A stretch of 64,000 bases of DNA from Nitrobacteraceae bacterium AZCC 1564. GTDB taxonomy: Bacteria > Pseudomonadota > Alphaproteobacteria > Rhizobiales > Xanthobacteraceae. Shown here piece after piece: positions 38,975 to 60,667 of the stretch. The first letter of the stretch is position 1. Each line of letters starts with the position of its first letter. The notes below the pieces were generated by a model. The model was not told the DNA's origin, ran no database searches, and saw nothing but the letters and a program-made list of their open reading frames with translations. A program made the translations under genes and the position numbers. Location of the stretch: contig JBAGRR010000001.1 in assembly GCA_036924835.1 (NCBI GenBank), positions 5,471,001 through 5,535,000 of the forward strand, written 5' to 3'.

Positions 38975-39336
38975 TAGCGCGCCTCATTCTAATCGGGAGC
39001 TTGCGATGAAAAACAGTGAGTAAAATTGGCCATAGTTTGACGCGCGTTGATGTGTGGCGCGACGCATGCTCACGAACTGCGTGATAATTCGATGAAGAAC
39101 ACTAGAAAATGAAACGGAAGAGCGTGATGATGTGTTCATCTGTGCATCTCTGACACGTGTCGAGTATGGAACCTAACGGCATAAATAACACGTGGTGTGA
39201 TAGGCGCGATTTACTTTCGCGCGCGTGCTGTTCTTTCACCGCGATGTGTTTTCACATTATTCAATGCTGAGCCTCGTCCTTTCTGTTTACGCGAGTGTGC
39301 AAATGGCTTATTGGCGTAAGTGGATCGTGACAAGTT

Positions 39337-39371
39337 GCGTCCGACGGGCATCCCGCCGGGCGCTTTTTGTT
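39337..39371 (+). terminator. rho-independent terminator, unit 1
   Basis: Stem GCGTCCG-A-CGGG with CCCG-C-CGGGCGC (one wobble, one mismatch) followed by TTTTTGTT. It is the conserved 3' end of repeat unit 1. Confidence 0.7.
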
Positions 39372-39556
39372 TTGAGGTGAATTCCTGGTCGTCTCAGAGC
39401 ATGGCAGCTCAATGAAATAAGTGGCGCGTGATTTACTTTCGCGCGTGCTGTTCTCTCCCCACGATGTGATTTCACGTTATTCAACGCTAAATATCATTCT
39501 TTCTGTTTACGCGAGTGTGCGAATGGCCTATTGGCGTAGGTGGATCGTGACAAGTT

Positions 39557-39591
39557 GCGCCCGACGGACATCCCGCCGGGCGCTTTTGTTT
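39557..39591 (+). terminator. rho-independent terminator, unit 2
   Basis: Stem GCGCCCG-A-CGG with CCG-C-CGGGCGC, then TTTTGTTTTT. Same element as in unit 1 with the wobble pair restored to a Watson-Crick pair. Confidence 0.75.
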
Positions 39592-39753
39592 TTGAGGTGA
39601 ATTCCAATCGATAGGTGGTGCGCCATTTACTTTCACGCGCGTGCTGTTCGCTTGCCGCGTCGTGTTTTTCACGTTATTCAATGGCGCGCTTTGCAGTTTG
39701 TGTTTACGCGACAGTGCGAACGGCTTATTGGCGTAAGTGGATCGTGACAAGTT

Positions 39754-39806: not shown

Positions 39807-40136
39807 ATGGCGCAGCGCGGAGCACGAAAAGGTACGACGCGCAAGGCGAGCAGTGATAATGCAGATCCTGCTCATGAACGCTCCAGCGTTCGCATGACCA
39901 ATGCGCGAAAAACGCCAGCCAACGATCTCTCGCCCGTGGATTACATGCTTTCGATCCTGCGCGATGAGACGCAATCGCAAGGGGACCGCATGGATGCGGC
40001 GAAGGCGGCTGCGCCGTATCTGCATGCGCGGCTGTCCGGCGTGAAGCATTCTGGCGAGCTGGCGATGCGCCACGAGGACGCGCTGAATGAACTTGACGAC
40101 GCGCGAAAGACGAATTCGCGTAAGACTTCGCGATGA
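39807..40136 (+). CDS. phage terminase small subunit-like protein
   Basis: A 109-residue basic protein. The C-terminal half has SPVDYMLSILRDETQSQGDR and AAKAAAPYLHARL, a pattern seen in small terminase subunits of several tailed phages. The N-terminal 40 residues are basic and disordered (MAQRGARKGTTRKASS). It overlaps the large-terminase gene by 50 bases. It should recognise the packaging site and load the large subunit. Confidence 0.7.
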   Translation: MAQRGARKGTTRKASSDNADPAHERSSVRMTNARKTPANDLSPVDYMLSILRDETQSQGDRMDAAKAAAPYLHARLSGVKHSGELAMRHEDALNELDDARKTNSRKTSR

Positions 40137-41628
40137 CTTTCCATACTACGCGTCGAAATGTCTCAAGATCAGGGCGAAGTCCGGCGCTATCGAGCCGCTG
40201 ATCCTGAACCGCGCGCAGCTTCATGTTCATGAACGGCTCGAGGCGCAGAAGGCGGAAATCGGCAAAGTCCGCGCGCTGATCCTGAAAGGGCGGCAGCAAG
40301 GCTGCTCCACATATGTGGAGGGGCGTTACTACCATCGTGTGTCGCACTCTCGAGGGCTGCGCGCCTTCATCCTCACCCATGAGGATGCGGCGACGCAGAA
40401 CCTGTTCGAGATGGTCAACCGCTATCATCAACACTGCCATCCGTTGGTGAAGCCGTCGACCGGATCGGCCAACGCCAAGGAATTGAATTTCGATGTGCTC
40501 GATAGCGCCTACAAAGTCGGCACCGCCGGCACCAAAGGCGTGGGGCGCTCATCGACCTTGCAACTGTTTCACGGCTCCGAAGTCGGTTTCTGGCCGCATG
40601 CCGACACGCATGCTGCTGGCGTGCTGCAGGCAGTGTCGGACGAGCCGGGGACAGAAATCATTCTGGAGAGTACGGCCAACGGCGTCGGCAACTTCTTTCA
40701 TCGCAAGTGGCGTGATGCCGAGACCGGCAAGAGCGACTACATCGCGATCTTCATTCCGTGGTTCTGGCAGCAGGAATACCGCAAGGCGCCGCCGCCCGAT
40801 TTCATGCTCGACGAGGAGGAGGGCGAATACGCAACGCTCTACCGCCTCGATGATGAACAGATGTGCTGGCGGCGGAATAAGATCATCGAACTGAAAGACC
40901 CTGTCTTGTTTAAACAGGAATATCCGGCGACCGCCGCCGAAGCATTCCAGATGTCCGGACATGACAGCTTCATTCCGCCCGCGCTGATCGCGCGTGCGCG
41001 CAAGGCGCAATGCGAGGCGTCGGGCCCGCTGGTGATCGGTTACGATCCCGCATGGATGGGCAGCGATCGTCACTCGATGGCGTGGCGGCGCGGGCGGCGT
41101 GTGCTGAAAGTGGAATCGAAGCAGAAGCTCGACACCGTGCAGGGCGCGGGTTGGGCGAAATCCGTGATCGACAGGGACAAGCCCGCAAAGATGTTCATCG
41201 ATGTCGGTGGTGTCGGCGCCGGTGTGTTCGACCAAATCCGGCACATGGGCGAGCCTTATGCCTCTATCATTGAGGCCGTGAATTTCGGCGCAGCACCTTA
41301 TGAGCCGCCGCCGCTCGACGAGCGCGGCAAGCCCAGCGGTGGACCGATGAACCGCCGCGCGGAGATGTGGATGAAGTCGAAGGAATGGCTGGAAGATCCT
41401 TCCGGCGCGCAGATCCCCGACTGCGACAGCTTGCAGGCCGATGCGTGCGGGCCGACCTACAAGTACGACAGCAACACGCGGTTGGTGCTGGAGAAGAAGG
41501 AAGACATGCGGCGGCGCGATGCGCTCAGTCCCGATGAATGGGACGCGGTGGCGCTGACCTTCGCCAAACCTGTCGCGCCTTCATCGTTCAATCGTCCCAT
41601 CAACTACCCACGTCAAGGCATCGCTTAA
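40087..41628 (+). CDS. phage terminase large subunit
   Basis: A 513-residue terminase motor. The ATPase part has a Walker-A-like ALILKGRQQGCSTY and a helicase-like FILTHEDAATQNLFEMV; the nuclease part has VIGYDPAW and FIDVGGVGAGVFDQI. The end, CGPTYKYDSNTRLVLEKKED, fits the C-terminus of large terminases. It packages DNA into the prohead with the portal. Start 40087 overlaps the small-subunit gene; the portal gene follows at once. Confidence 0.9.
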   Translation: MNLTTRERRIRVRLRDDFPYYASKCLKIRAKSGAIEPLILNRAQLHVHERLEAQKAEIGKVRALILKGRQQGCSTYVEGRYYHRVSHSRGLRAFILTHEDAATQNLFEMVNRYHQHCHPLVKPSTGSANAKELNFDVLDSAYKVGTAGTKGVGRSSTLQLFHGSEVGFWPHADTHAAGVLQAVSDEPGTEIILESTANGVGNFFHRKWRDAETGKSDYIAIFIPWFWQQEYRKAPPPDFMLDEEEGEYATLYRLDDEQMCWRRNKIIELKDPVLFKQEYPATAAEAFQMSGHDSFIPPALIARARKAQCEASGPLVIGYDPAWMGSDRHSMAWRRGRRVLKVESKQKLDTVQGAGWAKSVIDRDKPAKMFIDVGGVGAGVFDQIRHMGEPYASIIEAVNFGAAPYEPPPLDERGKPSGGPMNRRAEMWMKSKEWLEDPSGAQIPDCDSLQADACGPTYKYDSNTRLVLEKKEDMRRRDALSPDEWDAVALTFAKPVAPSSFNRPINYPRQGIA

Positions 41629-43842
41629 ATGGCAAAAATGTCCGTATCCACGCTGCAGGCCATGCTTGCGGCGGAGAAAGCCGATGCGCTGGCGGCAACA
41701 TCTTCAGCCCGGCTCTCCATCGAGCGCTCTGATGCGATGGATTATTACCTCGGCGACATGCGCAAGGACATGCCGCAGCTCGAAGGCCGCTCCAGCGCCG
41801 TCTCCACCGATGTGGCGGACACCATCGAAGGTCTGATGCCGAGCCTGATGGAGATCTTCTGCGGCTCGGATGAGATCGTCTGCTTTAATCCGGTGAGCGC
41901 AGAAGATGTCGCTGCCGCCGAGCAGGAAACCGATTACGTCAATCACGTCTTCATGCAGCGAAATCCAGGATTTCTGATCCTGTATTCCTTCATCAAGGAT
42001 GCGCTGCTGCAGAAGGTGGGCGTGGTGAAGGCCTGGTGGGAAACGCGCACCGAGGAAGAGCGCGAGACCTATCTGGACCAGTCCGACGACGCGTTTGCGC
42101 TGCTGGCGCAGGCCGTGCTGCAGAGCAACGGCGCGCTCGCCATTGAGGCGCATACGCGGAAGGAAAACCCCGGGCCGGTCAGTCCGGCCACCGGTCAGCC
42201 GTCGGTTGTCATCACTCATGACGTCACCATCGTCACCACCCGCAAGTTCGAGCAGGCGCGCGTTGAGGGTGTTCCTCCGGAGGAGTTCGGCATCGAGCGC
42301 AACGCGCGCTCAATCGCGGCGAGCAACTACTGCTTCCACAAGATTGTGACGCTGACCGAGGCCAAGCTGATCGAGCAGGGCTATGACGCGGCGCAAGTGA
42401 GGGCACTGCAGACCTACGGCAACACATCCAACACCGAAGAGCTGAGCCGCGACAGCGTTGACGAGGAGTACTGGGCCGACAGCAGCACCAATTCCGGCTC
42501 ACGCATCATCGAGGTGGTCGAGCACTACATCCGGATGGATTACGGCGGCACTGGCAAGGTCGGCCTCTACAAGGTGACAACCGGCGGCGGCCAGGAGGAG
42601 ATTCTCCGCAAGGACGGGCGCGAGGATATCGAGCAAGTTGATATGATGCCGTTCGCGGCGATGACGCCGGTGATCGTGACCCATCGCTTCTTCGGTCGGT
42701 CCATCGCCGACCTGGTGATGGATATCCAGCGGATCAAGACCGCGCTGGTGCGAGCGATGCTGGATGCGCAGTATCTGGCGAACAATCCGCGCACCATCGT
42801 TTATGAAGGGCTCGCCAGCGAGAACACCATCGATGATCTGCTGGTCGCTCGGCCCGGCGGCATCATCCGCGCCAAGGCTCAAGGAGCCGTGGAGCCGTTC
42901 AAGCATCCGGCCATCGCCGGCGATGTGCTGCCGGTGATCGAATACATGGACGCCACACGCGAATGGCGCACAGGCGTCACGCGACAGGGGCAGGGTATCG
43001 ACGCCAATTCGCTGCAGAACGTCTCCGCCACCGCATCGGCTCAAGGTTACAGCGCGGCGCAGGCGCGCATGAAGCTTATTGCTCGTATCTTTGCCGAGAC
43101 CGGCATCCGCGATCTGTTTCTGCTGCTGCATGGGATTATCCGCAAGCACGCCACGCAGGCCGACACCGTCGAGCTGCGCAAGCAGTGGGTGCCGGTCGAT
43201 CCGCGAGGCTGGAAGACCCGCACCGATATGACGGTGAAAGTGGGGCTCGGCTCCGGCACCCGGCAGGAGCGGGCGGCGAATCTCACCATGCTGATGAACC
43301 TGCAGAAAGAAGCCCTGATGGGCGGGCTGCCGGTGGTCACGCCGAAGAACATCTTCAACGCGGCGAAAGAGCTGTGCAAGGTCATCGACCTGAAGGATGT
43401 CAGCCCGTACATGACGGACCCGGACTCGCCTGAAGGCAAGGCGATGGCGCAGGCGTCATCGCAGAAGCCGGATCCGGTGATGGCCGGGCTGCAGATGAAG
43501 GCGGCGCTGGACGAGAAAGCCGATCAACGCAAGGCGCAGATCGAGAGCGTCCAGGCCCAAGCGGATATTGAGACCCAGCGCGACAAGACCCGTGCGGAGA
43601 TGGCTCAGACCGAGCGGGACTTTGCGCTGAAGCGGGAGCTGGCGCTGCTGGAAGCCGAGCTCGAGCGCGAAAAGTTCAATCGCGAGGAAGCGCGCCGCGA
43701 CCGCGAGCACGAACAGCGCATGGAACAAGCCCGTCAGATGCACGAGCACGCCATGGCGCAGGGACACTTCAACCTGGCGGCCGGTGCCGAGGCGCATCAG
43801 CAGAAGATGGCGCGCAACACGCAGGATGGAGTTGGTACGTGA
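41629..43842 (+). CDS. phage portal protein
   Basis: A 737-residue portal (head-tail connector) of the podoviral, P22-like type. The core starts about residue 35 (DYYLGDMRKDMPQLEGRSSA) and has DTIEGLMPSLMEIFCG. The C-terminal 150 residues are a long charged coiled coil (KTRAEMAQTERDFALKREL) as found in the barrel or crown extension of large portals. Twelve copies form the DNA-entry ring. Its start directly follows the terminase stop and its end overlaps the next gene by four bases. Confidence 0.85.
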   Translation: MAKMSVSTLQAMLAAEKADALAATSSARLSIERSDAMDYYLGDMRKDMPQLEGRSSAVSTDVADTIEGLMPSLMEIFCGSDEIVCFNPVSAEDVAAAEQETDYVNHVFMQRNPGFLILYSFIKDALLQKVGVVKAWWETRTEEERETYLDQSDDAFALLAQAVLQSNGALAIEAHTRKENPGPVSPATGQPSVVITHDVTIVTTRKFEQARVEGVPPEEFGIERNARSIAASNYCFHKIVTLTEAKLIEQGYDAAQVRALQTYGNTSNTEELSRDSVDEEYWADSSTNSGSRIIEVVEHYIRMDYGGTGKVGLYKVTTGGGQEEILRKDGREDIEQVDMMPFAAMTPVIVTHRFFGRSIADLVMDIQRIKTALVRAMLDAQYLANNPRTIVYEGLASENTIDDLLVARPGGIIRAKAQGAVEPFKHPAIAGDVLPVIEYMDATREWRTGVTRQGQGIDANSLQNVSATASAQGYSAAQARMKLIARIFAETGIRDLFLLLHGIIRKHATQADTVELRKQWVPVDPRGWKTRTDMTVKVGLGSGTRQERAANLTMLMNLQKEALMGGLPVVTPKNIFNAAKELCKVIDLKDVSPYMTDPDSPEGKAMAQASSQKPDPVMAGLQMKAALDEKADQRKAQIESVQAQADIETQRDKTRAEMAQTERDFALKRELALLEAELEREKFNREEARRDREHEQRMEQARQMHEHAMAQGHFNLAAGAEAHQQKMARNTQDGVGT

Positions 43843-44138
43843 TCGACGAGCTCAAAGCCAACAACGAGATGTCCCGCGGCGCGCGGGCACAGGCACTGCT
43901 CGACAATGAGCTGCTCAATGAGGCGTTCACCGCTCTTGAAGCCGCCTACATCGAACGCTGGCGCGCGACCCATATCGATGACGAGCGTGGGCGCGAGAAG
44001 CTGTTCATTGCCGTGAACGTGGTCGGCAAGGTGCGCGCGCATCTCGCGGCTATCGTCGCCAACGGTCATATTGCCGCAAAGCAGCTCGACGAGCTGGCGC
44101 GCGATGCCGAGCGGTGGAAGCGGCTTGGGATTGTGTGA
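43839..44138 (+). CDS. small conserved phage protein
   Basis: A 99-residue, helical protein starting at GTG 43839, which overlaps the portal stop (GTGA). It has NELLNEAFTALEAAYIERWR and NVVGKVRAHLAAI. I remember similar proteins between portal and capsid genes in short-tailed phages of rhizobia; the role (perhaps scaffold or assembly) is unknown. It is the last gene before the AT-rich insertion holding the Ntn-hydrolase pair. The 247 bases after it contain a small hairpin GTGAAG/CTTCAC and no gene. Confidence 0.6.
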   Translation: MIDELKANNEMSRGARAQALLDNELLNEAFTALEAAYIERWRATHIDDERGREKLFIAVNVVGKVRAHLAAIVANGHIAAKQLDELARDAERWKRLGIV

Positions 44139-44385
44139 AGTAGCTTCACGGCGGAACGGCGGCCGCATTTCACCGATTCGCTGGGATCGGGTGGCCACAG
44201 GTCCTGTCGACTCGATCGTGGATATCTATGCCCTTAATCCGCAACCGCTGATTGACATGTCGCTTCGGCTACGACAACAGTTAGGCGGTGCTGGGGGCTT
44301 AGAGCGGTCGTGAGCGGGCATAAAACCCCGTTGCAAAAACGAACAAGGAATTGCTCTGAAAGCTGCCGCTTGCAGGTGGCGCGGG

Positions 44386-45714
44386 ATGACAACTGAAATT
44401 GCCGTTTCAAATAGGCTGGGTATTGCACTTGCTACGGATAGCGCAGTCACTATTTCCGGCAATGGGCATGTTAAGGTTTTCGATACTGCGGACAAACTGT
44501 TCGAGCTTAGCCCGCAATATCCCATCGGGGTAATGATCAATGGCAACATGGATTGTATCGGAGTGCCGTGGGAGCTCTTGGTCAAAGAGTTTCGAGCAAC
44601 CGAAGGAATACGTCAGCGTGCCACGGTCGAAGAGTGGGGCATCGATTTTCTAAAGTACGTCGAGGATCATGTCTTAATTGATGAGACGGCGGTCGGAAAA
44701 TATGTTGACCAAATAATCAGCGTCGAAATCGAAGAGACGCAGTTAGACGTTGCTGGAGATATACAGCTTCAGATTTTTGACTCCGCGCGTCAAAATAAGA
44801 AGGTCAAAGTTTCGAGCATCGATGAGCTATTGGATAGCTATTTCGAACGAAGGCTTGCTCAGCTTTTAGAGATACCGATCGCCGATAGTTTGCAAGAACT
44901 AACGGTTGAGGAAGTAATAAAAAGCTATTCAGCTCGCATCGAGGAAATCTCAAAAGTTCGCTTCAAAGGCCGAGAGCTAACTTCCAAAGAAATGGAGAAG
45001 TTTAAGCAGATTGTTGCGAATGCATTTCTTAGGGTTCTGCCATCTGATTTTACAACGGGGATAGTTGTCGCTGGATTCGGAGAGAAGCAGACGTTTCCAG
45101 CGGTCTATGCCGTTGAAGTGGATGGTCGTGTACTTGGTCGGATGAAGTTCTCAAATTCAGTGTCGAGTTCGATCGAGACCTCTCCAGACGGTGGACAGGT
45201 TATTTATTTTGCCCAGACTGACGTTATTCAACGCCTCCTGGGCGGCGCTGACCCCAAGTTTGTAGAGCGGACATCTGAATTTATCGAAATAGCCGTCGGA
45301 AAAGTAGCCGATGCGATTGAGAAAGCCCTTCGGGCCAGAAAACTCTCCAAGAAAGCGGCCGAATCTCGTAAGGTATTGATACACGAAATTACTGCAGCAA
45401 TTCGGGCTGAGTACGAGAAGGAGACTACGAAGTCATTACGCGAGCAATTCTCTCGGGAATTTGATAGAATGGTCGCAATGATGCCGAAGCAAGAGCTCAT
45501 AGAACTAGCTGAAGCTTTGGTGAGTATAACAGCTGTGGAACGTAAGGCCACAGTTGACGAAGGTACGGTTGGTGGTCCGGTCGATGTAGCCTTCATTACA
45601 AAGCATGAGGGCTTCGTTTGGATTAAGCGAAAGCATTACTTTGAAGCGACGCTAAATCCGCGCTACTTCTGGCGGAAGTACGGTAAGCCTCCCAACGGAG
45701 AACAACGGTCATGA
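44386..45714 (+). CDS. proteasome-like Ntn-hydrolase candidate
   Basis: A 442-residue protein whose first 55 residues match the N-terminus of proteasome beta/HslV proteins. Removing Met leaves TTEIAVSNRLGIALATDS, with Thr1 and Asp17 exactly placed, and KVFDTADKLFEL gives a lysine at about 36 that would serve as Lys33 with a small insertion. A later segment (TGIVVAGFGEKQTFPAVYAV) resembles the second half of the proteasome fold. Between them and after them are helical extensions; the C-terminus ends with GFVWIKRKHYF. I recall relatives of this family in diverse bacteria, all hypothetical. Protease activity is inferred, not shown. The gene is AT-richer than its neighbours and sits between portal and capsid genes. 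Confidence 0.75.
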   Translation: MTTEIAVSNRLGIALATDSAVTISGNGHVKVFDTADKLFELSPQYPIGVMINGNMDCIGVPWELLVKEFRATEGIRQRATVEEWGIDFLKYVEDHVLIDETAVGKYVDQIISVEIEETQLDVAGDIQLQIFDSARQNKKVKVSSIDELLDSYFERRLAQLLEIPIADSLQELTVEEVIKSYSARIEEISKVRFKGRELTSKEMEKFKQIVANAFLRVLPSDFTTGIVVAGFGEKQTFPAVYAVEVDGRVLGRMKFSNSVSSSIETSPDGGQVIYFAQTDVIQRLLGGADPKFVERTSEFIEIAVGKVADAIEKALRARKLSKKAAESRKVLIHEITAAIRAEYEKETTKSLREQFSREFDRMVAMMPKQELIELAEALVSITAVERKATVDEGTVGGPVDVAFITKHEGFVWIKRKHYFEATLNPRYFWRKYGKPPNGEQRS

Positions 45715-45908
45715 AAAATAGGCTCTTATTGACCCGCGACAGGCGGCCTGATCGCAAGTCAAGTCATGCCGAAAGCGACGCTCTCGATCGCGGTCTTGCG
45801 GCCGCAGTTAGCCGGTCAAGCCAGTCGGTTGGTGAGAAGATTGAGGCTATAATCCGAGAAAAGTATCCATCGATTGGTAAGTCCCGAGGTCATGTAGTCG
45901 AGTCGTGA
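45711..45908 (+). CDS. 65-residue partner of the Ntn-hydrolase candidate
   Basis: It starts at ATG 45711, overlapping the stop of the Ntn gene by four bases (ATGA), so the two are translated together. It is basic at the N-terminus (MKNRLLLTRDRRPDRK), with a helical end (SQSVGEKIEAIIREKYPS). No known family is visible. It could be a substrate, inhibitor, adaptor or a chance ORF; the tight overlap supports a real partner. Confidence 0.5.
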   Translation: MKNRLLLTRDRRPDRKSSHAESDALDRGLAAAVSRSSQSVGEKIEAIIREKYPSIGKSRGHVVES

Positions 45909-46484
45909 ATCTACCTCGTCAGACAGAAGTTCTGTAGCTGAGTAGTCAGAATATAGGCTTAGAAGCATATCAGATCTGCAGGCGCCGTCATGGCGGCCAC
46001 GAATTCAACAGTTTAGCCGATAAGGCTGACGCCGCCCTTCCGATTGCTCTTCGTATGGAGAGCACTCGAGGCCCCCGGTGAGACGCAGGAAGACGGCCCG
46101 GCTGCGATTGCCGCTCCCCGGACATTCCGAGGTCTTGGACGAAGCAACGACCCCTTGAGCCAAACTCGAACCGTGCGACGCGAACCTCCGCGACGCATGA
46201 CAGCGAGGCCATGGCGATCGTTCGCCTGAGTCACCACGCGGCCGCTCACAGCACGAGGTCATTTTGACGCGTGCAGGTGAGGCGGCCAAGCGGCGCGCAG
46301 CTCTAGAGTCTTGTTTTGACGCGTTTTCTTCACGCGAACCGGTAACCACTTCGCTCGAAAACGCTTTAGCGCTGTAACGCCTCGAACAGTCCAAGCACTT
46401 CACAACGTCTCAACCCAAACGCCGGCAACCCCCGCGGTGCATTCGTGCACGCCAGCGACGCCGGCGAGAGAAGGAAACACATTC
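45909..46484. other. gene-free gap before the capsid gene
   Basis: 576 bases without a supported gene. Reading frames on both strands across 46013-46249 are open (a 78-codon reverse frame containing RRGGSRRTVRVWLKGSLL and a 61-codon forward frame), which may mean an unrecognised RNA or repeat, since I seem to recall the reverse frame in bradyrhizobial genomes. Repeat D lies at 46305. The final 40 bases hold the capsid ribosome-binding site. Confidence 0.5.
46305..46372. repeat. repeat D
   Basis: Full element, from AGAGTCTTGTTTTGACGCG to CTCGAAAACGCTTTAG, with inverted arms GCGTTTTC/GAAAACGC. It lies inside the prophage, 113 bases before the capsid gene, and matches copies at 31636 and 13505. 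Confidence 0.8.
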
Positions 46485-47444
46485 ATGGCCATGCCATCCA
46501 ATACCTTTGCCACTTATGAGGCGGTCGGCAACCGCGAAGACCTGTCGGACGAAATCTTCCGTATCGATCCGACCGACACGCCGTTCTTCACCATGTGTGA
46601 GAAAGTGAAAGCCTCCGCCGTCAATCACGAATGGCAGACGCAGGCGCTCGACAATCGCGACACCGGAAACGCAGTGCTCGAAGGCGATGACGCCACGACC
46701 GATGCCACCGTGCCGACGGTGCGCCTCGGCAACATCTGCCAGATCTCGGACAAGGTGGCGCGCGTCTCCGGCACCCAGCAGGCGGTGGAACACGCCGGGC
46801 GCGGCGATGAACTCGGCTATCAGAAGATGCTGAAGGGCCTCGCGCTCAAGCTCGACATCGACGCCATTCTCTGCGGCACCAACCAGGCCAAGGTTGTCGG
46901 CGACGATTCCACTGCGCGCAAGACCGCTTCGGTTCTCTCGTGGCTCAAGACCAACACGTCGAAAGGCACTGGCACTGCGGCCGACCCGGCGGCGGCGAAC
47001 GGCGCCGGCACCCGCACCGACGGCACGCAGGTGGCCTTCACCGAGGCGCGACTGAAAACCGTGCTGCAGTCCTGCTGGACCAATGGCGGCAAGCCGAACA
47101 TCATCATGTGCGGCGGCTTCAACAAGCAGCAATTCTCGACCTTTACCGGCCGCTCCACGCCGATGGAGGACGCGCGTTCGAAGAAGATCGTGGCCTCAGT
47201 GGACGTCTACGAATCCGACTTCGGCGTGCTGAAGGTGGCGCCAAGCCGCCAGGTGCGCCCACGCGACGTGCTCGTCCTGCAGGACGACATGTGGGCGATC
47301 GCGCATCTCAACGGCCGCAAGATGGTGTCCGTGCCGTTGGCCAAGACCGGTGACAGCGAGCGCGCGCAGCTCTTGAGCGAATACGCGCTGGAAGCCCGCA
47401 ATGAAAAGGCCTCCGGCGGCGTGTTCGACAACACGGGCGCGTAA
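46485..47444 (+). CDS. major capsid protein (DUF5309 / SU10 type)
   Basis: A 319-residue protein beginning MAMPSNTFATYEAVGNREDL. The Glu-Asp-rich start and IFRIDPTDTPFFTMCEKVKA then VNHEWQTQALDNR are typical of SU10-like capsid proteins. The end has ERAQLLSEYALEARNEKASG. The ATG at 46485 is supported by AAGGAAAC. It forms the icosahedral shell. It is preceded by a gap with repeat D and followed by a strong terminator. Confidence 0.85.
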   Translation: MAMPSNTFATYEAVGNREDLSDEIFRIDPTDTPFFTMCEKVKASAVNHEWQTQALDNRDTGNAVLEGDDATTDATVPTVRLGNICQISDKVARVSGTQQAVEHAGRGDELGYQKMLKGLALKLDIDAILCGTNQAKVVGDDSTARKTASVLSWLKTNTSKGTGTAADPAAANGAGTRTDGTQVAFTEARLKTVLQSCWTNGGKPNIIMCGGFNKQQFSTFTGRSTPMEDARSKKIVASVDVYESDFGVLKVAPSRQVRPRDVLVLQDDMWAIAHLNGRKMVSVPLAKTGDSERAQLLSEYALEARNEKASGGVFDNTGA

Positions 47445-47470
47445 ACTTTTATCATCTCCCTGCAACTTGT

Positions 47471-47499
47471 GGGCGGCCTTCGGGTCGCCCATTTTTTTT
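47471..47499 (+). terminator. rho-independent terminator after the capsid gene
   Basis: Stem GGGCGGCC-TTCG-GGTCGCCC (eight pairs with one wobble and a TTCG tetraloop) followed by a run of eight T. It is 27 bases after the capsid stop and ends next to the GGAGAAT ribosome-binding site of the following gene. It likely sets a high capsid:tail ratio by partial termination. Confidence 0.85.
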
Positions 47500-47509
47500 G
47501 GAGAATTAA

Positions 47510-47875
47510 ATGACTCTCGCTAATCCGCGCCCGCTCAACATCATTCGCGTGTTCGCGCATATGGCGGACTGCTCCACGCCGGGCAGTGCATTCACCGCAG
47601 CGCCATGCCGCGGCAGGGTGGTGAAGATGGGCTCCGTCATCCACGCGGCAGTCACCACTGCCGACAACACCATCACCACAAAGATCAAGGGTAACGTCGT
47701 GACGGGCGGCGGCTGGACCATTGCCTTCACGGGCTCTGCGGCCGGCGATGTCGATATCGTCGTTCCCGCCGACGGTAACGCCGTCAACGAGGATGATGCC
47801 ATCGAGTTCGTCACCGACGGTGCAGGCTCCGGCACCGTGCCCACAACCTTCTTCGCAGACGTCCAGATTGCTTGA
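47510..47875 (+). CDS. capsid-associated phage protein
   Basis: A 121-residue protein of beta-rich, Gly/Thr/Ala-rich composition (TITTKIKGNVVTGGGWTIAF), without membrane segments. Its place straight after the capsid gene suggests a decoration or head-stabilising protein. Similar proteins follow capsids in related rhizobial phages, but I cannot name the family. A good GGAGAA ribosome-binding site precedes ATG 47510. Confidence 0.6.
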   Translation: MTLANPRPLNIIRVFAHMADCSTPGSAFTAAPCRGRVVKMGSVIHAAVTTADNTITTKIKGNVVTGGGWTIAFTGSAAGDVDIVVPADGNAVNEDDAIEFVTDGAGSGTVPTTFFADVQIA

Positions 47876-47876
47876 T

Positions 47877-48173
47877 ATGAAACAGTCCCATCGCATCGGC
47901 GTCACGCAGGCCATTGCCTATGACGCATCTGCCGCCATCGCCAACGCGTTCGGCCCGCAGACCTATCGCATCAGGCTGGTGTCGAATTCGGCCTGCCATT
48001 TCCGGATCGGCGACGGCGCGCAGACCGCGACCGCCGCGGATCCCTATCTGCCTGCCAACTGGGAGACCTTCGTCACCGTGACGCCAGGCCAGCGCATCTC
48101 CGCCATCAAGGCCGCGACCGGCGGCCTAGTCAGTGCGACAGCGGGCACCCTGTGGGTAACGGAACTGCAATGA
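47877..48173 (+). CDS. small phage structural protein
   Basis: A 98-residue protein, starting MKQSHRIGVTQAIAYDASAA, with ACHFRIGDGAQTATAADPYL and a Val-Thr-rich end, consistent with a small beta-sandwich virion protein. I take ATG 47877. Its stop overlaps the next gene's start by four bases. Role unknown. Confidence 0.65.
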   Translation: MKQSHRIGVTQAIAYDASAAIANAFGPQTYRIRLVSNSACHFRIGDGAQTATAADPYLPANWETFVTVTPGQRISAIKAATGGLVSATAGTLWVTELQ

Positions 48174-48499
48174 GCGTCCACACCTCCCTCCACATCGATG
48201 AGAGCGCGAAGGGTTTTACGTTCAAGCGCTCGCAGGATGTGGAGGACATCATCGAAGCCAACAAGCAGGCGGCTGCGCTGCCGCAGGCGAGCGACTGGGG
48301 ACGGCACGTCGCACGCATTCCCAACATCTTTCTCGAGCAGTGGCTGAACGAGGAATACGCCCGCGGCAACGTCAGCTTGCGCCTGTTCACGCCGGAGTTC
48401 GACCGGCTGATTGCGCGCAAGCTGCAGGATCCTGATTGGCGCTTCCTGCGCGTCGACGCTGCGTCCACGCAGGCGGGCTGGCGAGGGGGTTCATCGTGA
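48170..48499 (+). CDS. phage hypothetical protein
   Basis: A 109-residue protein, starting MSVHTSLHIDESAKGFTFKR then SQDVEDIIEANKQAAAL, with conserved-looking RIPNIFLEQWLNEEYARG. I have seen this type (SQDVEDIIEANK) among structural genes of short-tailed phages. The start overlaps the previous stop (ATGA). Role unknown. Confidence 0.65.
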   Translation: MSVHTSLHIDESAKGFTFKRSQDVEDIIEANKQAAALPQASDWGRHVARIPNIFLEQWLNEEYARGNVSLRLFTPEFDRLIARKLQDPDWRFLRVDAASTQAGWRGGSS

Positions 48500-49149
48500 G
48501 TCTTGCAAATTATGCCGATCTGCAAGCGGCCATCGCCGAATGGCTAGGCCGCGAGACCGACGCCGCCATTCTCTCGCGCGTGCCGGATTTCATTCGCCTG
48601 TGTGAGGCGAAGCTCAACCGCGACCTGCGTTCCAACAAAATGGAGAAGCGGGCGACGGCGTTGGTCAATATGCTGAGCGACGAGCCGGAGTTCGTCAGCC
48701 TGCCACTCGATTTCCAGACCATGCGGCGCGTCCGCCTGAACGGTGTGGATGGCAAGCCGCGTCTTGAGTTTTTGAGCGGACAGCAGGCGGATGAATTCCG
48801 CGCACGCTCCGGCAACGCACCGGGGCGTCCGCAGTTTTTTACCATCTTCGGCGACGAGATGGAGCTGATCCGCACGCCGGATATGGCCTACACGCTTGAG
48901 ATGGTTTACCGCGCCAATATTCCCGCGCTATCGAACGCTAGTCCGTCGAACTGGCTGCTTTCGACCTCGCCGGATATCTACCTCTATGGCGCACTGCTCG
49001 AGACCGCGCCTTACATCAAGGAAGACGAGCGTATTGCCACCTGGGCCGCTGGATTCAAATACGCACTCGACAGCATCAATCAGCTTTCGCGCGATCAGGC
49101 CTACAATGCAGGCCCGATGACCGCGCGTGTGAGCGGGGCAACGCCGTGA
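48496..49149 (+). CDS. phage adaptor (head-tail connector) protein
   Basis: A 217-residue protein with GTG start at 48496 overlapping the previous stop (GTGA). It has DLQAAIAEWLGRETDAAILS, DFIRLCEAKLNRDLRS, LPLDFQTMRRVRLNG and TLEMVYRANIPALSN, the pattern of SU10/P22-gp4-like adaptors that join the portal to the tail. Confidence 0.75.
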   Translation: MSLANYADLQAAIAEWLGRETDAAILSRVPDFIRLCEAKLNRDLRSNKMEKRATALVNMLSDEPEFVSLPLDFQTMRRVRLNGVDGKPRLEFLSGQQADEFRARSGNAPGRPQFFTIFGDEMELIRTPDMAYTLEMVYRANIPALSNASPSNWLLSTSPDIYLYGALLETAPYIKEDERIATWAAGFKYALDSINQLSRDQAYNAGPMTARVSGATP

Positions 49150-49158
49150 GGATGACAG

Positions 49159-49578
49159 ATGGCGACATTCAACAAGTTTAATTCATTCGTCGAGGCGCTG
49201 GCCGAGAAGGTGCATAACCTCGGCTCAGATCAGCTCAAGGCTGCGCTCTCGAGTACTTTGCCGGTAGCGACTAATACTGTGCTTGCGAACATTACTCAGA
49301 TCGCGGCGGTGAATGGATATCCACCCGGAGGAATCCCACTCACAACGGCGGAGTCTGCACAAGCCGGCGGCGTCTACAAGCTCACCATCAATGATGCGAC
49401 GCTGATGGCCACTGGCGGAGCGGTCGGACCATTTCAGTATGTCGTGCTCTACAACGACACGGCTGCGAATGATGAGCTCATAGGTTGGTATGACTACGGC
49501 GTACCACTGACGATAACGAGCGGAAATTCATTCATCATCGACTTTGACAGCGATAATGGCGTGTTGACAATCATCTGA
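49159..49578 (+). CDS. phage virion protein
   Basis: A 139-residue protein that starts FNKFNSFVEALAEKVHNLGS and is then beta-rich (NGYPPGGIPLT, GGAVGPFQYVVLYNDTAAND, LIGWYDYGVPLTITSGNSFI). Proteins with this start are frequent among tail-associated genes of alphaproteobacterial phages; no precise role is known. It is nine bases after the adaptor gene and precedes the fibre genes. Confidence 0.6.
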   Translation: MATFNKFNSFVEALAEKVHNLGSDQLKAALSSTLPVATNTVLANITQIAAVNGYPPGGIPLTTAESAQAGGVYKLTINDATLMATGGAVGPFQYVVLYNDTAANDELIGWYDYGVPLTITSGNSFIIDFDSDNGVLTII

Positions 49579-49592
49579 CGGCGAGCTGCAGA

Positions 49593-50546
49593 ATGGCGAA
49601 ACTCTTCAATCTTGCGCGCATGACAACAGCGACAACGGGCACGGGCACGATTACGCTCGGCGCTGCGGTTGCCGGCTATCTATCGTTTGCCCAAGCAGGC
49701 GTAGCAAATGGCGATGTCGTCGATTATGCAATTAAGGATGGCAACAATAGCGAGATCGGCACAGGGACCTATGCGGCTGCTGGCAGAACGCTGACGCGCA
49801 GTGTGAGCGCTTCGACAAATGGCAACGCTGCAATCAATCTGTCTGGTACCGCAGAGGTATTCATAACCGCTCGGGCCGAAACGCTGCTTACGTCCATCAA
49901 GAGGCAAGTCTTTACTTCGAGCGCTACCTATACACCTTTGCCCGGCATGGTGTTCTGCATTATCGAAGCTATAGGTGCTGGCGGCGGCGGTGGCGGTGCT
50001 TTCAGCGCCAGTGCGACCCAAGCATACGCTGGGGGCGGCGGCGGAGCAGGAAGCTACTCGCGAAAGTATGCTACGGCGGCGGACATCGGCTCTTCACAGA
50101 CCGTTACGATTGGAGTGGGGGGCGCTGGTGGAAACCAGCAGAACAATGGGGCCGTTGGAGGTGACACATCAGTTGGTTCACTCTGTATCGGTAAGGGCGG
50201 CGGCAGCGGCCAATACGGCTCTATCGGCCAATTTCCATATGGCGCACCGGGGGGTGGACTTGGTACGGGAGATTTAACGAGTGTAGGCGCGCCAGGTACT
50301 CCTGGGGCATATTGCCAAATTAATACGCTTACAGTCGCCAGCGGCACCGGGGGGGCATCGCTTTTCGGATCCGGTGGCAGAGGCGTGTTCTCTAATTCCT
50401 CGGTTATCAACGGCAATGCGGCGAACGGATATGGATCAGGGGGTAGCGGGGCACTCAACCACTCTGTTGCCAATAGCGGGGCGCAGGGCGGTCCGGGCTC
50501 CAACGGCGTCGCCATTATCACTGAGTTCTGCAACGGGAGTGGATAG
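49593..50546 (+). CDS. glycine-rich tail-fibre-type protein
   Basis: A 317-residue fibre-like protein. The N-terminal part (residues 1-110) is a beta domain with TTATTGTGTITLGAAVAGYL. From about residue 125 a Gly-rich domain runs nearly to the end (AIGAGGGGGGAF and repeated GGxG), as in phage receptor-binding Gly-rich domains. It probably recognises the host surface. The 49593 start is ATG with weak RBS. Confidence 0.65.
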   Translation: MAKLFNLARMTTATTGTGTITLGAAVAGYLSFAQAGVANGDVVDYAIKDGNNSEIGTGTYAAAGRTLTRSVSASTNGNAAINLSGTAEVFITARAETLLTSIKRQVFTSSATYTPLPGMVFCIIEAIGAGGGGGGAFSASATQAYAGGGGGAGSYSRKYATAADIGSSQTVTIGVGGAGGNQQNNGAVGGDTSVGSLCIGKGGGSGQYGSIGQFPYGAPGGGLGTGDLTSVGAPGTPGAYCQINTLTVASGTGGASLFGSGGRGVFSNSSVINGNAANGYGSGGSGALNHSVANSGAQGGPGSNGVAIITEFCNGSG

Positions 50547-50551
50547 CCGAT

Positions 50552-50977
50552 ATGCCGACCTATGCAATTGTCGAAGTAAGCGGTGCAATCACTAACAATA
50601 TTATCCTTGACGAGGGATCGGTGTGGCAGGCCCCGGAAGGATGCTCGATCATCGTGAATGATGACCAAGTTTACCGGATCGGCGGCACACTTATCGATGG
50701 TGTCTACACCGCCCCTGTGACAGAGGCTCAGCCGCTGCCGGCCTCTGCCCTGCCAAAAACTGCAACAAAGCTTGGTCTCAAACGCGCGTTCGATGAACTT
50801 GGTATGTGGGATCGGGTAAAGGCAGTGATTGCAGCGGATTCGGAAGCGCAAGAAGAGTGGGGCTTGGCGCTTGAGATCAAGCGCAGCGATCCCTTGACGC
50901 AGAAGTTGATTGCAGTGTTACAGCTTCCGACTGAAACGGTAGATCACATCATCATTCGAGCAAACGAACTGGTTTAA
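50552..50977 (+). CDS. fibre-associated / assembly-like phage protein
   Basis: A 141-residue protein. The first 60 residues (MPTYAIVEVSGAITNNIILD, then GCSIIVNDDQVYRIGG) are beta-rich as in fibre-assembly-like proteins. The rest is helical (TKLGLKRAFDELGMWDRVKA). It lies right after the fibre gene, as assembly chaperones do. Function inferred. Confidence 0.55.
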   Translation: MPTYAIVEVSGAITNNIILDEGSVWQAPEGCSIIVNDDQVYRIGGTLIDGVYTAPVTEAQPLPASALPKTATKLGLKRAFDELGMWDRVKAVIAADSEAQEEWGLALEIKRSDPLTQKLIAVLQLPTETVDHIIIRANELV

Positions 50978-50980
50978 TCG

Positions 50981-51592
50981 ATGCTTGGCTTTGATGCGCT
51001 TGGCCGGCTTGCTCTCGGACAGCCCGAAGATATGGGCGCAAGCGCAGTCGTTCTAGTTGCTGCGACCGGTCCGTTTGCCCTTACAAGGAGAGCTGTCGTA
51101 TTCGACGTTAAGCATGCAGCTGTAGCGGGTGAATTTTCCCTGATGGGACCTGCAGTCTCGTTTAATGTCAGAGAGTTTGTCAGCTTAGGTGCTTTCGCAC
51201 TATCTGGAGAACCAATTCAGTTCGCTATTAGCGAGGCTATTAGTGCCTCTTCGTTCGCGCTGAGCGGCAAGGATATAGATTTCAGGTTTTTTCTCCCTCT
51301 AGAGAATGGCTGCTTCAATCTATCTGGCGCTGACGCTGATCTCACGGCGAAACTTGGCGTTGAGTATGGATCATTCGACTTTGCCGGAATCGACGTCAGC
51401 TTCACCGTCATTCCAGAGTGGTGGATTCCTGTCCCCGAAGATCATGACGGCTGGACGGAACAACCGAAAGACGGTGATCCTTGGGCAGCAGCCGCGGCGA
51501 TCTGTGAGGATTGGACAATCAAATCGGTCCCGTCGGACATCTGGATGGAACGCAGCAAATCTCCTGAACCTTGGACGGAAGAAACGATTTAG
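50981..51592 (+). CDS. phage protein with exact 20-residue repeats
   Basis: A 203-residue protein. From residue 32 to about 143 it has six repeats of exactly 20 residues, each starting with a Phe (FALTRRAVVF, FSLMGPAVSF, FALSGEPIQF, FALSGKDIDF, FNLSGADADL, FDFAGIDVSF). Such strict periodicity suggests a regular beta structure such as a solenoid. The C-terminal 55 residues are Trp- and acid-rich (WTE, DPW, EDW, PEPWTEET). Location among fibre genes suggests a virion part. Confidence 0.65.
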   Translation: MLGFDALGRLALGQPEDMGASAVVLVAATGPFALTRRAVVFDVKHAAVAGEFSLMGPAVSFNVREFVSLGAFALSGEPIQFAISEAISASSFALSGKDIDFRFFLPLENGCFNLSGADADLTAKLGVEYGSFDFAGIDVSFTVIPEWWIPVPEDHDGWTEQPKDGDPWAAAAAICEDWTIKSVPSDIWMERSKSPEPWTEETI

Positions 51593-51595
51593 CTC

Positions 51596-53068
51596 ATGCC
51601 ACTGATCCAATACGGTGAATACCGTCCTGATGTTTCGGACTATGAGGGTGCGACGACGAAGAACATTCTCAACGTGCTGCCGCAAGGTGACGGCTATGGG
51701 CCGTTCCCCGATTTCACGAGCTACAGCGCGGCCTTGCCTGGAATGTGCCGCGGTGCGTTCTACGCCTTGAAGGGGGACGGAACTGTCGCCACCTTCGCCG
51801 GCACAGAAGACAGGCTTTATGTTTTCGACAACACCACGTTTGCGTGGGTCGATGCGTCGAAGGGCGGCGCGACCTATTCCGCGCTGAGCGGGACGGCGCA
51901 ATGGCGCTTCGCGCAGTTCAATAGTCTGGTGTTTGCGACGCAGGCGAACGACGTTTTACAGGTGTTTGACCTGCGATCGTCCAGCGCTTTCGATGATGCG
52001 CTTGGCAATCCGCCGCAGGCGGCATATATCGAAGTTGTTGGCCGATTTCTTGTTCTCTCGGGCCTCCTCTCAAATCCGTATCGCATTCAGTGGTCGGGCT
52101 TGAACGACGTGAACACGGCCCAATCTTGGACCAGCGGTGTCAATTCGTCGGATTTCCAAGACTTGCCTGACGGCGGCATCGTGCGCGGTGTGGCAGGCGG
52201 TGAGTACGGCACCATCTTTCAAGATCAGGCCATCCGCCGGATGATCTATGCGCCCGGTTCGCCGGTGATCTTCCAGATCGAGCGCGTGACGCAGGATCAA
52301 GGGCTTTATGCGCCCTACAGCGTCATCCGCTCGGGCGATGCGATCTTCTTTTACTCCGCGAAGGGCTTCTACAAGATTGAGCCGGGCGGATTGCCACAGC
52401 AGATCGGGCGCGAGCGCGTGGACCGCACGTTCTTTGCCAATCTGGACAAGGGTAATCTACAGCTCTTCATGGGCGCAGCTGATCCGCGCGGCACACGGGT
52501 GTTCTGGGCTTATAAGTCGGTTGATGGTGCCACTGGCTCATACGACACCATTCTCGGCTATGACCGCGCACTGGATCGCTTCTTCCCGATCAGGATGCGC
52601 GGGCAATATCTGCTCGGCATCTCGCAAACAGGGCTGACGCTGGAGTCTCTCGACGATCTGTCCGCCTCGATCGATGCGATGTCCGCCTCGCTCGACAGCT
52701 ACGCGACCTCCGTGACGCCGGAGATCTCGCAGTTCAACAGTGAGAATGTGCTCGGCTTCTTTCGTGGCGGGAATCTCGAGGCGACGCTCGAGACGTCGGA
52801 GCAGGGGACGGACGGCAAGCGCATCTTCATCAAAGGCTTTCGTCCGGTGACCGATGCAGCACAGGTTTTTGGTATGGCGTCGTTCCGCGACAATCAGCAG
52901 GCGGGCGTGACCATCACGCCGGAGGCGCTGATCAATCCGCGCACCGGCCGCTGTGATTTCCGCAAGGAAACGCGTTACTCCCGCTTCAGGACACGGATTC
53001 CGGCAGGCGCTGCGTGGTCGTTCAGTGTCGGCGTCGAGCCGGATATCACGACGGCGGGGGCGCTATGA
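51596..53068 (+). CDS. phage packaged-DNA stabilisation / beta-propeller protein
   Basis: A 490-residue beta-rich protein. Multiple short W/Y-rich blade-like segments occur (RIQWSGLNDVNTAQSWTSG, GDAIFFYSAKGFYKIEPGG, TILGYDRALDRFFPI), like P22 gp10-type stabilisation proteins that close the head after packaging. The middle, VVGRFLVLSGLLSNPYRIQW, is characteristic. It ends overlapping the next gene by four bases. Assignment by pattern. Confidence 0.7.
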   Translation: MPLIQYGEYRPDVSDYEGATTKNILNVLPQGDGYGPFPDFTSYSAALPGMCRGAFYALKGDGTVATFAGTEDRLYVFDNTTFAWVDASKGGATYSALSGTAQWRFAQFNSLVFATQANDVLQVFDLRSSSAFDDALGNPPQAAYIEVVGRFLVLSGLLSNPYRIQWSGLNDVNTAQSWTSGVNSSDFQDLPDGGIVRGVAGGEYGTIFQDQAIRRMIYAPGSPVIFQIERVTQDQGLYAPYSVIRSGDAIFFYSAKGFYKIEPGGLPQQIGRERVDRTFFANLDKGNLQLFMGAADPRGTRVFWAYKSVDGATGSYDTILGYDRALDRFFPIRMRGQYLLGISQTGLTLESLDDLSASIDAMSASLDSYATSVTPEISQFNSENVLGFFRGGNLEATLETSEQGTDGKRIFIKGFRPVTDAAQVFGMASFRDNQQAGVTITPEALINPRTGRCDFRKETRYSRFRTRIPAGAAWSFSVGVEPDITTAGAL

Positions 53069-53373
53069 GTGTCGCCATTGTCCAGACCAACGAGAAAGAT
53101 CTCACCAAATTCGCGTTCGCTCTGCAGCAGCTCGCGCAAGGGCGATCTAACGCGGTCGGTGAAGTGACGTTACGTGCCGGGCAGACCACGACCACGGTGA
53201 CCAACCAGACCTGCGGGCCTGAGAGCATCGTGCTGTTGATGCCGAAAACGGCGAATGCGGCGGCGGCGCTGGCGACGACTTATGTCACAGCGACAGCGCC
53301 GGGCACGTTTACCTTGACCCACGCAAACGCGGCTTTGACAGACCGCACGTTCGGATATGTGAATGTCGGTTGA
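53065..53373 (+). CDS. small phage protein
   Basis: A 102-residue protein from ATG 53065 (overlaps propeller stop). The start MSVAIVQTNEKDLTKFAFAL has a helical segment; a beta-rich end follows (TTYVTATAPGTFTLTHANAA). No membrane segment. Its end overlaps the GNAT-like gene by eleven bases. Role unknown. Confidence 0.6.
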   Translation: MSVAIVQTNEKDLTKFAFALQQLAQGRSNAVGEVTLRAGQTTTTVTNQTCGPESIVLLMPKTANAAAALATTYVTATAPGTFTLTHANAALTDRTFGYVNVG

Positions 53374-53767
53374 GCTGATCTGCGTTGCTCCCGACCGTGT
53401 TCACGAATTCTGGCCCCATGTCTCCGACCTGATCCATCGCGCCATCCGCCGCACCAATCTTTCGCATTCGCAGGACATCGACTTCGATGTACTGAACGGC
53501 GACGGCCTGTTGTGGATCGCCTGGAACGGCAGCGCGGTGGAGGCCGCGGCGACCACATCGCTGATCGAAACCGATGCAGAGAAGGTGTGTGTGCTCACGG
53601 CCTGCGGCGGCGCGAAGATGCGCCGCTGGCTCGGCCTTCTCGGCCAGATTGAAGATTACGCGAAAGCAGAAGGTTGTTCGCGCGTCCGCATATTCGGACG
53701 CAAGGGCTGGGTGCGTGTGCTTGAACGCTATCGCATCCGCAACGTCATCCTGGAGAAGGAACTCTGA
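53363..53767 (+). CDS. GNAT-fold-like phage protein
   Basis: A 134-residue protein. The DFDVLNGDGLLWIAWNG segment and AKAEGCSRVRIFGRKGWVRV fit acetyltransferase-fold proteins found at this place in short-tailed phage genomes. No acetyl-CoA loop is certain, so enzyme activity is unclear. It overlaps the S74 gene by one base (TGATG). Confidence 0.6.
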   Translation: MSVELICVAPDRVHEFWPHVSDLIHRAIRRTNLSHSQDIDFDVLNGDGLLWIAWNGSAVEAAATTSLIETDAEKVCVLTACGGAKMRRWLGLLGQIEDYAKAEGCSRVRIFGRKGWVRVLERYRIRNVILEKEL

Positions 53768-54855
53768 TGGGCGGTGAAAGCAAGCAGACCACCACGCAGC
53801 AAAGCCAGACGCAGCCTTGGGAGGCGGCGCAACCCGCGCTCAAGGGCATTCTGGATCAGCTCGGCACTCTCATTCCGAACAGCGGCCTGTCGCAGACGTC
53901 GCAGAACGCGATCCGCCAGTTGCAGCAGAACGCGCAGGCGGGCAATCCCTATGCCCCGCAGATCGGCAACCTGGCGACGAACCTGCTGAGCGGCGGCGGC
54001 GCGACCAGTCAGTCGGGCAACATCAATCAGGCGTATCAGGATTATCTGAAAGCGACCCAGCCGCTGGCGTCGAACACCAATTACGATCCGTACACCACGC
54101 CGGGGTTCGCGGATGCGCTCAAGACGGCCAGCGCCGACATCGTGAATGGCGTCAATGGTCAGTTCGCCGCGGCGGGCAGAGACTTTAGCGGGGCAAACTC
54201 ACAGGCTCTTGCGCGCGGTCTCGCGCAGGGGTTGGCGCCAACAATCGCGGCTCAATACAACCAGAATGTCCAGAACCAGCAGAATGCTGCGAGCAACTTG
54301 TACTCTGCCGGCAATACGACTGCGGGTCTTCAGTCCGGCTTGCAGCAGCAGGGCATTCAAAATCAGGTGCAGGGCGTGCAGACGGCGAACGATGCACTCA
54401 ATGCGCAGAATTATGGGCCGCAGCAGTTGCTGCAGCTCGAGCAGTTGAAGCAACAACTGCCGGCGCAGACGCTGGCGTTGCTGGCGCAGATCGGTGTGCC
54501 GATCGCGGGCCTCGGCCAGCAGTCGAACGGCACGAGCGAAACGACGAGTCAGATGTCTGGCGCGGATCAGTTCGCGAAGATCATGGGCGGCATCGGAAGC
54601 CTTGGGAATCTCGGCAATCTTAGCAAGCTTCCGTTTCTGTCCGATCGCCGCGTGAAGGAAGATATCGCCCAGATAGGTTCGCTGTTTGATGGCACACCGG
54701 TTTATCGCTTCCGCTATATCGGCCAGCCCGGATTCCAGATCGGCCTTATGGCCCAGGACGTCGAGAAGACGACGCCGGAAGCCATTGGCCAACTCGGGCC
54801 ATACAAGACGGTCGACTACAAGCTCGCAACTGACAGGTCCTTGCAGGTTGCCTAG
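53767..54855 (+). CDS. Gln/Asn-rich fibre or ejection protein with S74 chaperone-like end
   Basis: A 362-residue protein. The first 270 residues are Q/N-rich, low-complexity and helical (GESKQTTTQQSQTQPWEAAQ). The C-terminal end has FLSDRRVKEDIAQIGSLFDG, then PVYRFRYI and IGLMAQDVEKTTPEAIG, matching the peptidase-S74 intramolecular-chaperone domain that folds trimers and cleaves itself. It could be a fibre or an ejection protein. A damaged copy of its middle section is at 60160-60527. Confidence 0.75.
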   Translation: MGGESKQTTTQQSQTQPWEAAQPALKGILDQLGTLIPNSGLSQTSQNAIRQLQQNAQAGNPYAPQIGNLATNLLSGGGATSQSGNINQAYQDYLKATQPLASNTNYDPYTTPGFADALKTASADIVNGVNGQFAAAGRDFSGANSQALARGLAQGLAPTIAAQYNQNVQNQQNAASNLYSAGNTTAGLQSGLQQQGIQNQVQGVQTANDALNAQNYGPQQLLQLEQLKQQLPAQTLALLAQIGVPIAGLGQQSNGTSETTSQMSGADQFAKIMGGIGSLGNLGNLSKLPFLSDRRVKEDIAQIGSLFDGTPVYRFRYIGQPGFQIGLMAQDVEKTTPEAIGQLGPYKTVDYKLATDRSLQVA

Positions 54856-54899
54856 CGACGAATCTTTGAAGCACGCAATAAATTGTAAGGAGAGATCGC

Positions 54900-59789: not shown

Positions 59790-60159
59790 ACGATGACTCC
59801 GAGGAAAGCGCCCAACGATGCTCCAAAGGGTGCGAAGAAAATAGCGCGTCATAGCGTCCTCAAGTCTCGCTGCGAATGAGATCGGCCACGATTGAGATGA
59901 GGGCTGCGAACGGCCATCGAGACGGTCGCTCACGGAAAGCACTAGGACACTGGCGGGGCATGGAATCTTCCGATCGCGACGGTGAGCATTGGCTTTTGGC
60001 CCGAAAACACTTGCAATCTGGAACGTTTCAGGAACAAATACAACCATAGGCGCTATCGTTGAGGTCTGCACCCAGTGTCCGTGATCTATTTGCAACAGGT
60101 GGGACCACGGTCATGTCTCGGGAGATAGTTTGTCCGACGGCGGCGGGCCGTGGAATGTC

Positions 60160-60527: not shown

Positions 60528-60559
60528 TTAGGCGGCATGTTTGGAGGAGGAAAGAAGCA

Positions 60560-60667
60560 ATGGGGTTGCTTGATTATTTCGAAGAAGACGCGCCGCTCTT
60601 TGGACGGGTGTTCGGTGGCGCGAATTCTTCCGTGCAGCGGTCGGGGGTTATCGTAAATCTTCGATGA
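60560..60667 (+). pseudogene. 35-codon remnant of the transglycosylase-like gene start
   Basis: A short intact frame (MGLLDYFEEDAPLFGRVFGG, then VQRSGVIVNLR and stop) with GGAGGAGG upstream. Its first part matches the beginning of the gene at 54900. Its last part matches the end of the gene at 62788 (VQRSDAIVDLR), including the following TGATGAT. It looks like a large internal deletion of an ancestral gene. It may still be translated as a 35-residue peptide. Confidence 0.7.

Follow-up and report, generated by a model that had tools for sequence, protein, structure and literature searches.

We describe a mobile pair of overlapping genes in a stretch of 64,000 nt from Nitrobacteraceae bacterium AZCC 1564 (hereafter the window), where it lies among the head genes of a prophage. 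The first gene encodes a 442-aa protein that, by its modelled fold and its residues, stands among the proteasome-like N-terminal nucleophile (Ntn) hydrolases with an N-terminal Thr, with a predicted activity, and the second encodes a 65-aa protein. The enzyme family is already known, and it is the pairing with the small gene that looks new. The pair is mobile cargo. We see about an even chance that the two genes work as one module, with a threonine peptidase or transpeptidase under the control or direction of the small protein, and that this module probably serves to protect the element or its host, a function that we infer.

The enzyme is a proteasome homologue, very likely of the PMI-4 type

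A first-pass annotation of this DNA had pointed to a protein starting with TTEIAV after Met removal, with Asp17 and a Lys in DKLF, and had proposed a proteasome-type Ntn hydrolase with a helical insertion. All of these residues are present, the Asp being precursor D18 and the Lys mature residue 36 (precursor K37), and structure prediction followed by a fold search agreed with the proposed fold. The AlphaFold2 (AF2) model (predicted local distance difference test, pLDDT, 92.6; predicted template modelling score, pTM, 0.89) shows a proteasome beta core (alpha-beta-beta-alpha) with two helical insertions, one after H1/H2 and one between H3/H4. The core strands E28-32, E38-40 and E47-53 are followed by the helices H62-72 and H81-93, and the insertion helices were found at 100-215 and 322-364. 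Foldseek ranked proteasome subunits first, and VIA-align gave Z 18.3 to yeast proteasome subunits (184 residues, root mean square deviation 3.1) and Z 17.9 to Anbu.

At the sequence level the relation could be detected by profile only: a single-sequence phmmer search against the PDB gave no proteasome match, while a profile of 107 homologues reached the Thermoplasma proteasome beta subunit with E=3e-4, pairing Thr1, Lys33 and the strand GG.IDVAVI..DG. Pfam, NCBIfam and PADLOC hold no family for either the enzyme or its partner, and PHROG 5990, a family of unknown function, matches the 442-aa protein over its full length (E=3e-87).

Conservation was assessed in 114 distinct full-length copies that are about 25-45% identical to the window protein. 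D18 and K37 are invariant. At residue 2, 110 of the 114 copies have Thr and one (L038) has Ser, and the three exceptions have a frameshift (L071), a missing N-terminus (L087) or an in-frame TGA (L135), so the expectation that homologues keep the second-residue Thr was confirmed. Further, S19, P238, W412, K414-R-K-H-Y-F419 and N424 are invariant or nearly so. The core fold and catalytic residues are thus shared with the 20S proteasome beta subunit, HslV and Anbu, whereas the window enzyme is twice as long, has big helical insertions and carries the invariant C-terminal motif WIKRKHYF.

In 2021 Fuchs, Alva & Lupas reported 22 new proteasome homologues (PMC8665760). The most abundant of the insertion-bearing ones among them is PMI-4 (Proteasome homolog with Multiple Insertions 4), with 501 sequences at 90% identity; it is the only PMI variant listed in phages, has insertions after H1/H2 and between H3/H4, and was described as of unknown function, with 'no genomic contexts' hinting at one (PMC8665760). 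The window enzyme, and with it PHROG 5990, is very likely PMI-4, as the insertions are at the same two sites and the occurrence in phages and the phyla agree; the assignment follows the published description and not a sequence comparison with the representative HDY66466.1. Both have a beta core with Thr1/Asp17/Lys33-type residues and no propeptide, and both range over Pseudomonadota, Bacillota, Actinomycetota, Bacteroidota, cyanobacteria, Euryarchaeota and phages. The main text of that paper mentions neither an overlapping small gene nor an exchangeable cargo position, and the literature searched contained no experimental work on PMI-4. Of the new two-gene protease system suggested in the first-pass annotation, the pairing is therefore new and the enzyme family is not.

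A small partner gene follows the enzyme

As partner we counted an open reading frame (ORF) of 45-100 aa starting from 80 bases upstream to 60 bases downstream of the enzyme stop. Such a coupled ORF was found at 105 of 112 distinct loci (94%), while the rate was 30% when the downstream sequence was dinucleotide-shuffled and 25% behind other genes of these loci; the suggested two-gene organisation is in this respect kept by the homologues. Inspection by hand gave three more small ORFs, one of 103 aa in L080 and those of L085 and L108, where the rule chose another frame. The excess of small ORFs over the controls, together with the full-length match to PHROG 5990 and the many relatives in genomes and viruses, argues that the observation is not due to chance.

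The partner proteins are about 60 aa, usually basic and predicted to be helical. One profile family (hidden Markov model, HMM) collected 41 of 108 partners above decoys; this main clade shows the pattern S..E(F/Y)...(Y/F)(F/Y)P followed by a C-terminal helix LG..LA..(S/L)L. The window partner falls outside the main clade, but a profile made from ten other partners, of the alphaproteobacterial type, recognises it with 14.1 bits, a score reached by 0 of 1000 shuffles of its sequence. In 17 close pairs of the main clade the ratio of nonsynonymous to synonymous changes (pN/pS) was 0.15-0.42, meaning purifying selection, and the distances between partners track those between enzymes (Spearman 0.59, 0 of 2000 permutations). 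Depositors had annotated a coding sequence of 41-58 aa after the enzyme in five of the nine public records inspected. One natural in-frame pair, L079, was modelled as a pseudo-fusion with the stop read as Gln, and here the partner forms three helices with moderate to good confidence.

A real enzyme followed by a functionless ORF, arisen by chance or as a leader, would explain why the partner sequences diverge so much, and spurious ORFs are common in GC-rich genomes. It would not explain an occurrence of 94% against 25-30%, a pN/pS well below 1, or an HMM family that excludes decoys and a homologue profile that recognises the window copy, and we consider it exceedingly improbable.

The dedicated small protein at nearly every locus would also fit a connectase-like transpeptidase, in which Thr1 forms an acyl intermediate for protein ligation and the partner, or part of it, is the substrate or tag and not a regulator. 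Connectase is a known archaeal proteasome-like protein ligase (PMC8665760) which has the N-terminal Thr and the wider family in common with the window enzyme, and in the main partner clade a D-P/A step ahead of the C-terminal helix is conserved, along with a near-invariant Pro. The D-P/A step can, however, also be read as an ordinary helix cap, and the partner lacks an invariant C-terminus of the Pup or ubiquitin kind. In addition, the connectase hallmark of a two-helix insertion between S3 and S4 with loss of H1/H2 is missing from the AF2 model, where the S3/S4 loops are short and both helices are retained. Taken together this makes ligation a rather improbable function. For want of a conserved C-terminus in the small protein, we likewise set aside a role like that of Pup or ubiquitin.

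The pair occupies an exchangeable slot in the prophage

About 45 related elements encode a head scaffolding protein of about 360 aa (PHROG 3927) in the interval from the 99-aa gene to the capsid gene, and none of them carries the enzyme. In the window the scaffold gene is reduced to a remnant, its 5' half being replaced by the cargo. The nearest sister element is the viral contig L147, which has a 97% identical capsid and the same scaffold remnant. Its positions 1-134 match window 44005-44138 and its positions 1646-4816 match window 45975-49147; between these flanks L147 carries HicA and HicB, both above the Pfam cut-offs, and a third ORF. Since the flanks of HicA-HicB match those of the PMI-4 pair, the two are alternative cargo of one slot, and we regard this exchange with a toxin-antitoxin pair as the strongest contextual hint at an addiction or defence role of the PMI-4 pair. 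The third ORF of L147 (1122-1571, 149 aa) lies beside HicAB; by eye it resembled SecB, which searches of Pfam, NCBIfam, PHROGs and PDB sequences did not confirm, and no such identity is claimed.

The low GC content of the cargo, 48-49% against 59-62% in the flanking phage genes, agrees with what had been noted at first, and along with the exchange in L147 it supports the suggested late acquisition as cargo. The pair does lie between portal and capsid genes as first described, only not as an insertion between intact head genes, given the truncated scaffold gene.

The first-pass annotation had also considered head maturation. A prohead protease for the capsid of this prophage would commonly be encoded in the interval between portal and major capsid genes, and a Porphyromonas phage has its copy of the pair between adaptor and neck genes. 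We nevertheless find this role very unlikely, because homologues occur in archaeal and bacterial chromosomes, on plasmids, in satellite phages without head genes and in lysis regions. The enzyme also shows no conserved association with the capsid genes of a phage lineage: the related prophages, whose portal and capsid are homologous, have the scaffold gene in its place, and in L147 HicAB stands there.

The scaffold gene is destroyed both in the window (45975-46481) and in L147 (1646-2138). Nucleotide identity over the region that the two elements share is about 87%, yet their capsid proteins agree at 97%, which suggests that selection on the capsid continued.

Distribution and mobility

Homologues of the enzyme were found at 51 viral-contig loci, in at least 223 genome-contig stretches, of which 80 were kept, and in 13 phage and 10 plasmid records. 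Among the relatives of the host, 4 of the 151 genomes searched have the enzyme, including the source genome with its single copy. In Streptococcus satellite phages the pair is at the end of the element, in a Providencia phage it lies in the lysis region between DNA adenine methylase and holin, and in Enterococcus and Rhizobium it is found on plasmids near recombinase or integrase genes. A tree of 112 enzyme copies has viral and chromosomal sequences intermixed and groups some archaeal bins with bacterial ones. The neighbouring genes are diverse and no third gene recurs; in contrast to the 20S proteasome and HslV there is no recurrent alpha subunit or AAA+ partner, AAA domains being only sporadic.

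Many copies reside in archaeal and bacterial chromosomes beside ordinary metabolic genes, and other proteasome homologues are housekeeping proteases. A general or regulatory host protease for quality control or stress, which is carried on mobile elements incidentally and has the small protein as chaperone or adaptor, would fit this. Its patchy presence among the relatives of the host, the cargo positions on mobile elements, the apparent transfer across domains and the missing AAA+ partner all speak against such a role, which we take to be unlikely.

Some loci are noted for their surroundings. In another species of the genus (genome G007; L212, 1940-8824) the PMI-4 gene and its partner directly precede a compact terminase-portal-capsid cluster of the HK97 type that lies on the same strand and recalls the cluster of a gene transfer agent. 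A homologous gene of about 290 aa resembling an IS1-type transposase lies one to two genes from the PMI-4 gene in L058, L059, L022, L042, L116 and L130; L058 and L059 are the two closest enzyme homologues, and an IS1 transposase domain was found in two neighbours. On a plasmid of Rhizobium sp. T1473 (L145, 8699-12210) the PMI-4 gene is about 1.5 kb from a multiubiquitin/ThiF-E1/DUF6527/ClpP-like operon and close to a site-specific integrase.

Layout of the locus

The features of the locus are collected in Table 1. As first described, the second ORF overlaps the stop of the first, its start codon forming ATGA. The pair is preceded by an SU10-type portal gene and the 99-aa gene and is followed by a major capsid gene, likewise of the SU10 type. 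A scan for the sigma-70 consensus upstream of the pair gave no promoter-like site.

Table 1. Features of the PMI-4 locus in the window
Feature	Position	Strand	Basis
PMI-4-type proteasome-like N-terminal threonine hydrolase, 442 aa (very likely PMI-4; activity predicted)	44386..45714	+	AF2 fold match, profile match, alignments, PHROG 5990
Predicted catalytic residues Thr2, Asp18 and Lys37 (precursor numbering)	44389-44391, 44437-44439, 44494-44496	+	Alignments
Helical insertion after the first two core helices (residues ~73-222)	44602..45051	+	DSSP of AF2 model; PMI-4 insertion site in PMC8665760
Second insertion, between core helices H3/H4 (residues ~321-367)	45346..45486	+	AF2 helix 322-364; PMI-4 feature in PMC8665760
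C-terminal signature GGPVDVAF...GFVWIKRKHYF....N (residues 396-424)	45571..45657	+	Homologue alignment
Small partner gene overlapping the enzyme gene (65 aa; net charge +5; amphipathic helix predicted at the C-terminus)	45711..45908	+	Coupled ORF count, profiles
Exchangeable cargo segment, GC 0.49	44139..45974	.	Comparison with sister element L147
Head scaffolding gene remnant (~codons 73-108 of the L191 scaffold)	~46068..46172	+	blastn matches to the scaffold genes of L191 and L148
Conserved 99-aa phage gene, adjacent to the cargo on its upstream side	43839..44138	+	Present between the portal and scaffold genes of nearly all related prophages
SU10-type major capsid protein, downstream flank	46482..47444	+	Pfam PF17236, PHROG 1328

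The phage region at 39807-56063 is seemingly a late-gene module only, running from terminase to transglycosylase, with host metabolic genes upstream and no integrase or early genes among the larger ORFs nearby. A tandem repeat of 220 bp in 1.8 copies (39204-39605) lies just 5' of the small terminase gene. A gene resembling a DNA-ejection protein (53767-54855) has a degraded second copy about 5 kb downstream, at 60059-60667.

Proposed function

In Ntn hydrolases methionine aminopeptidase removes Met1 in front of Thr. The host enzyme would in this way expose the Thr1 nucleophile with no need for a propeptide, and Thr1, Asp17 and Lys36 (mature numbering) would form the active site for cleavage or transfer of peptide bonds. 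PMI insertion positions are predicted to hinder ring and double-ring formation sterically (PMC8665760). As the two helical insertions of the window enzyme are at such positions, they would prevent the usual double-ring barrel, and a small assembly acting on selected substrates seems likelier than a degradative barrel. Gene 2 would be translated from its overlapping start codon, coupled to the enzyme, and its product may bind the enzyme and control or direct it. An inhibitor or antitoxin, or a substrate adaptor, appears to fit a dedicated, translationally coupled and fast-evolving partner better than a structural subunit does. The module would most probably protect the carrying element or host in a toxin-antitoxin-like or anti-phage manner.

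With HicAB and the toxin-antitoxin-chaperone system CmdTAC the pair has in common that it is small, overlapping and horizontally exchanged in prophage cargo slots, and an overlapping two-gene operon on mobile elements is also a trait of type II toxin-antitoxin systems. It differs in having no sequence relation to either and in the gene order, the large protein coming first and the small one second. Defence or phage exclusion is plausible on the grounds of context. More specifically, we tentatively propose, with a chance somewhat short of even, a widespread two-gene anti-phage or addiction system in which the partner holds, aims or is consumed by the enzyme, and which is exchanged among phages, satellites, plasmids, bacteria and archaea.

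It should be noted that several observations weigh against this reading of the module. HicAB at the cargo site is one instance only, and the enzyme is matched by no PADLOC model. Genes of restriction-modification, DUF1016/YhcG and other defence systems do occur among the neighbours, which is a hint only, as the tallies have no background control, and the counts from the tree rest partly on metagenome bins that are possibly contaminated. Further, 67 of the 108 partners are beyond the reach of the main profile, a divergence unusual for a tight inhibitor of a conserved active site, and the pseudo-fusion model (partner pLDDT ~66-86) came with no inter-domain error and so is not informative on docking.

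PMI-4 has so far been without a functional lead. The conserved partner and the cargo niche supply one, which can be tested with two small genes. If the proposal is true, the proteasome fold would here underlie a system of immunity or addiction, and the pair would offer a simple model for the control of ring-free proteasome relatives.
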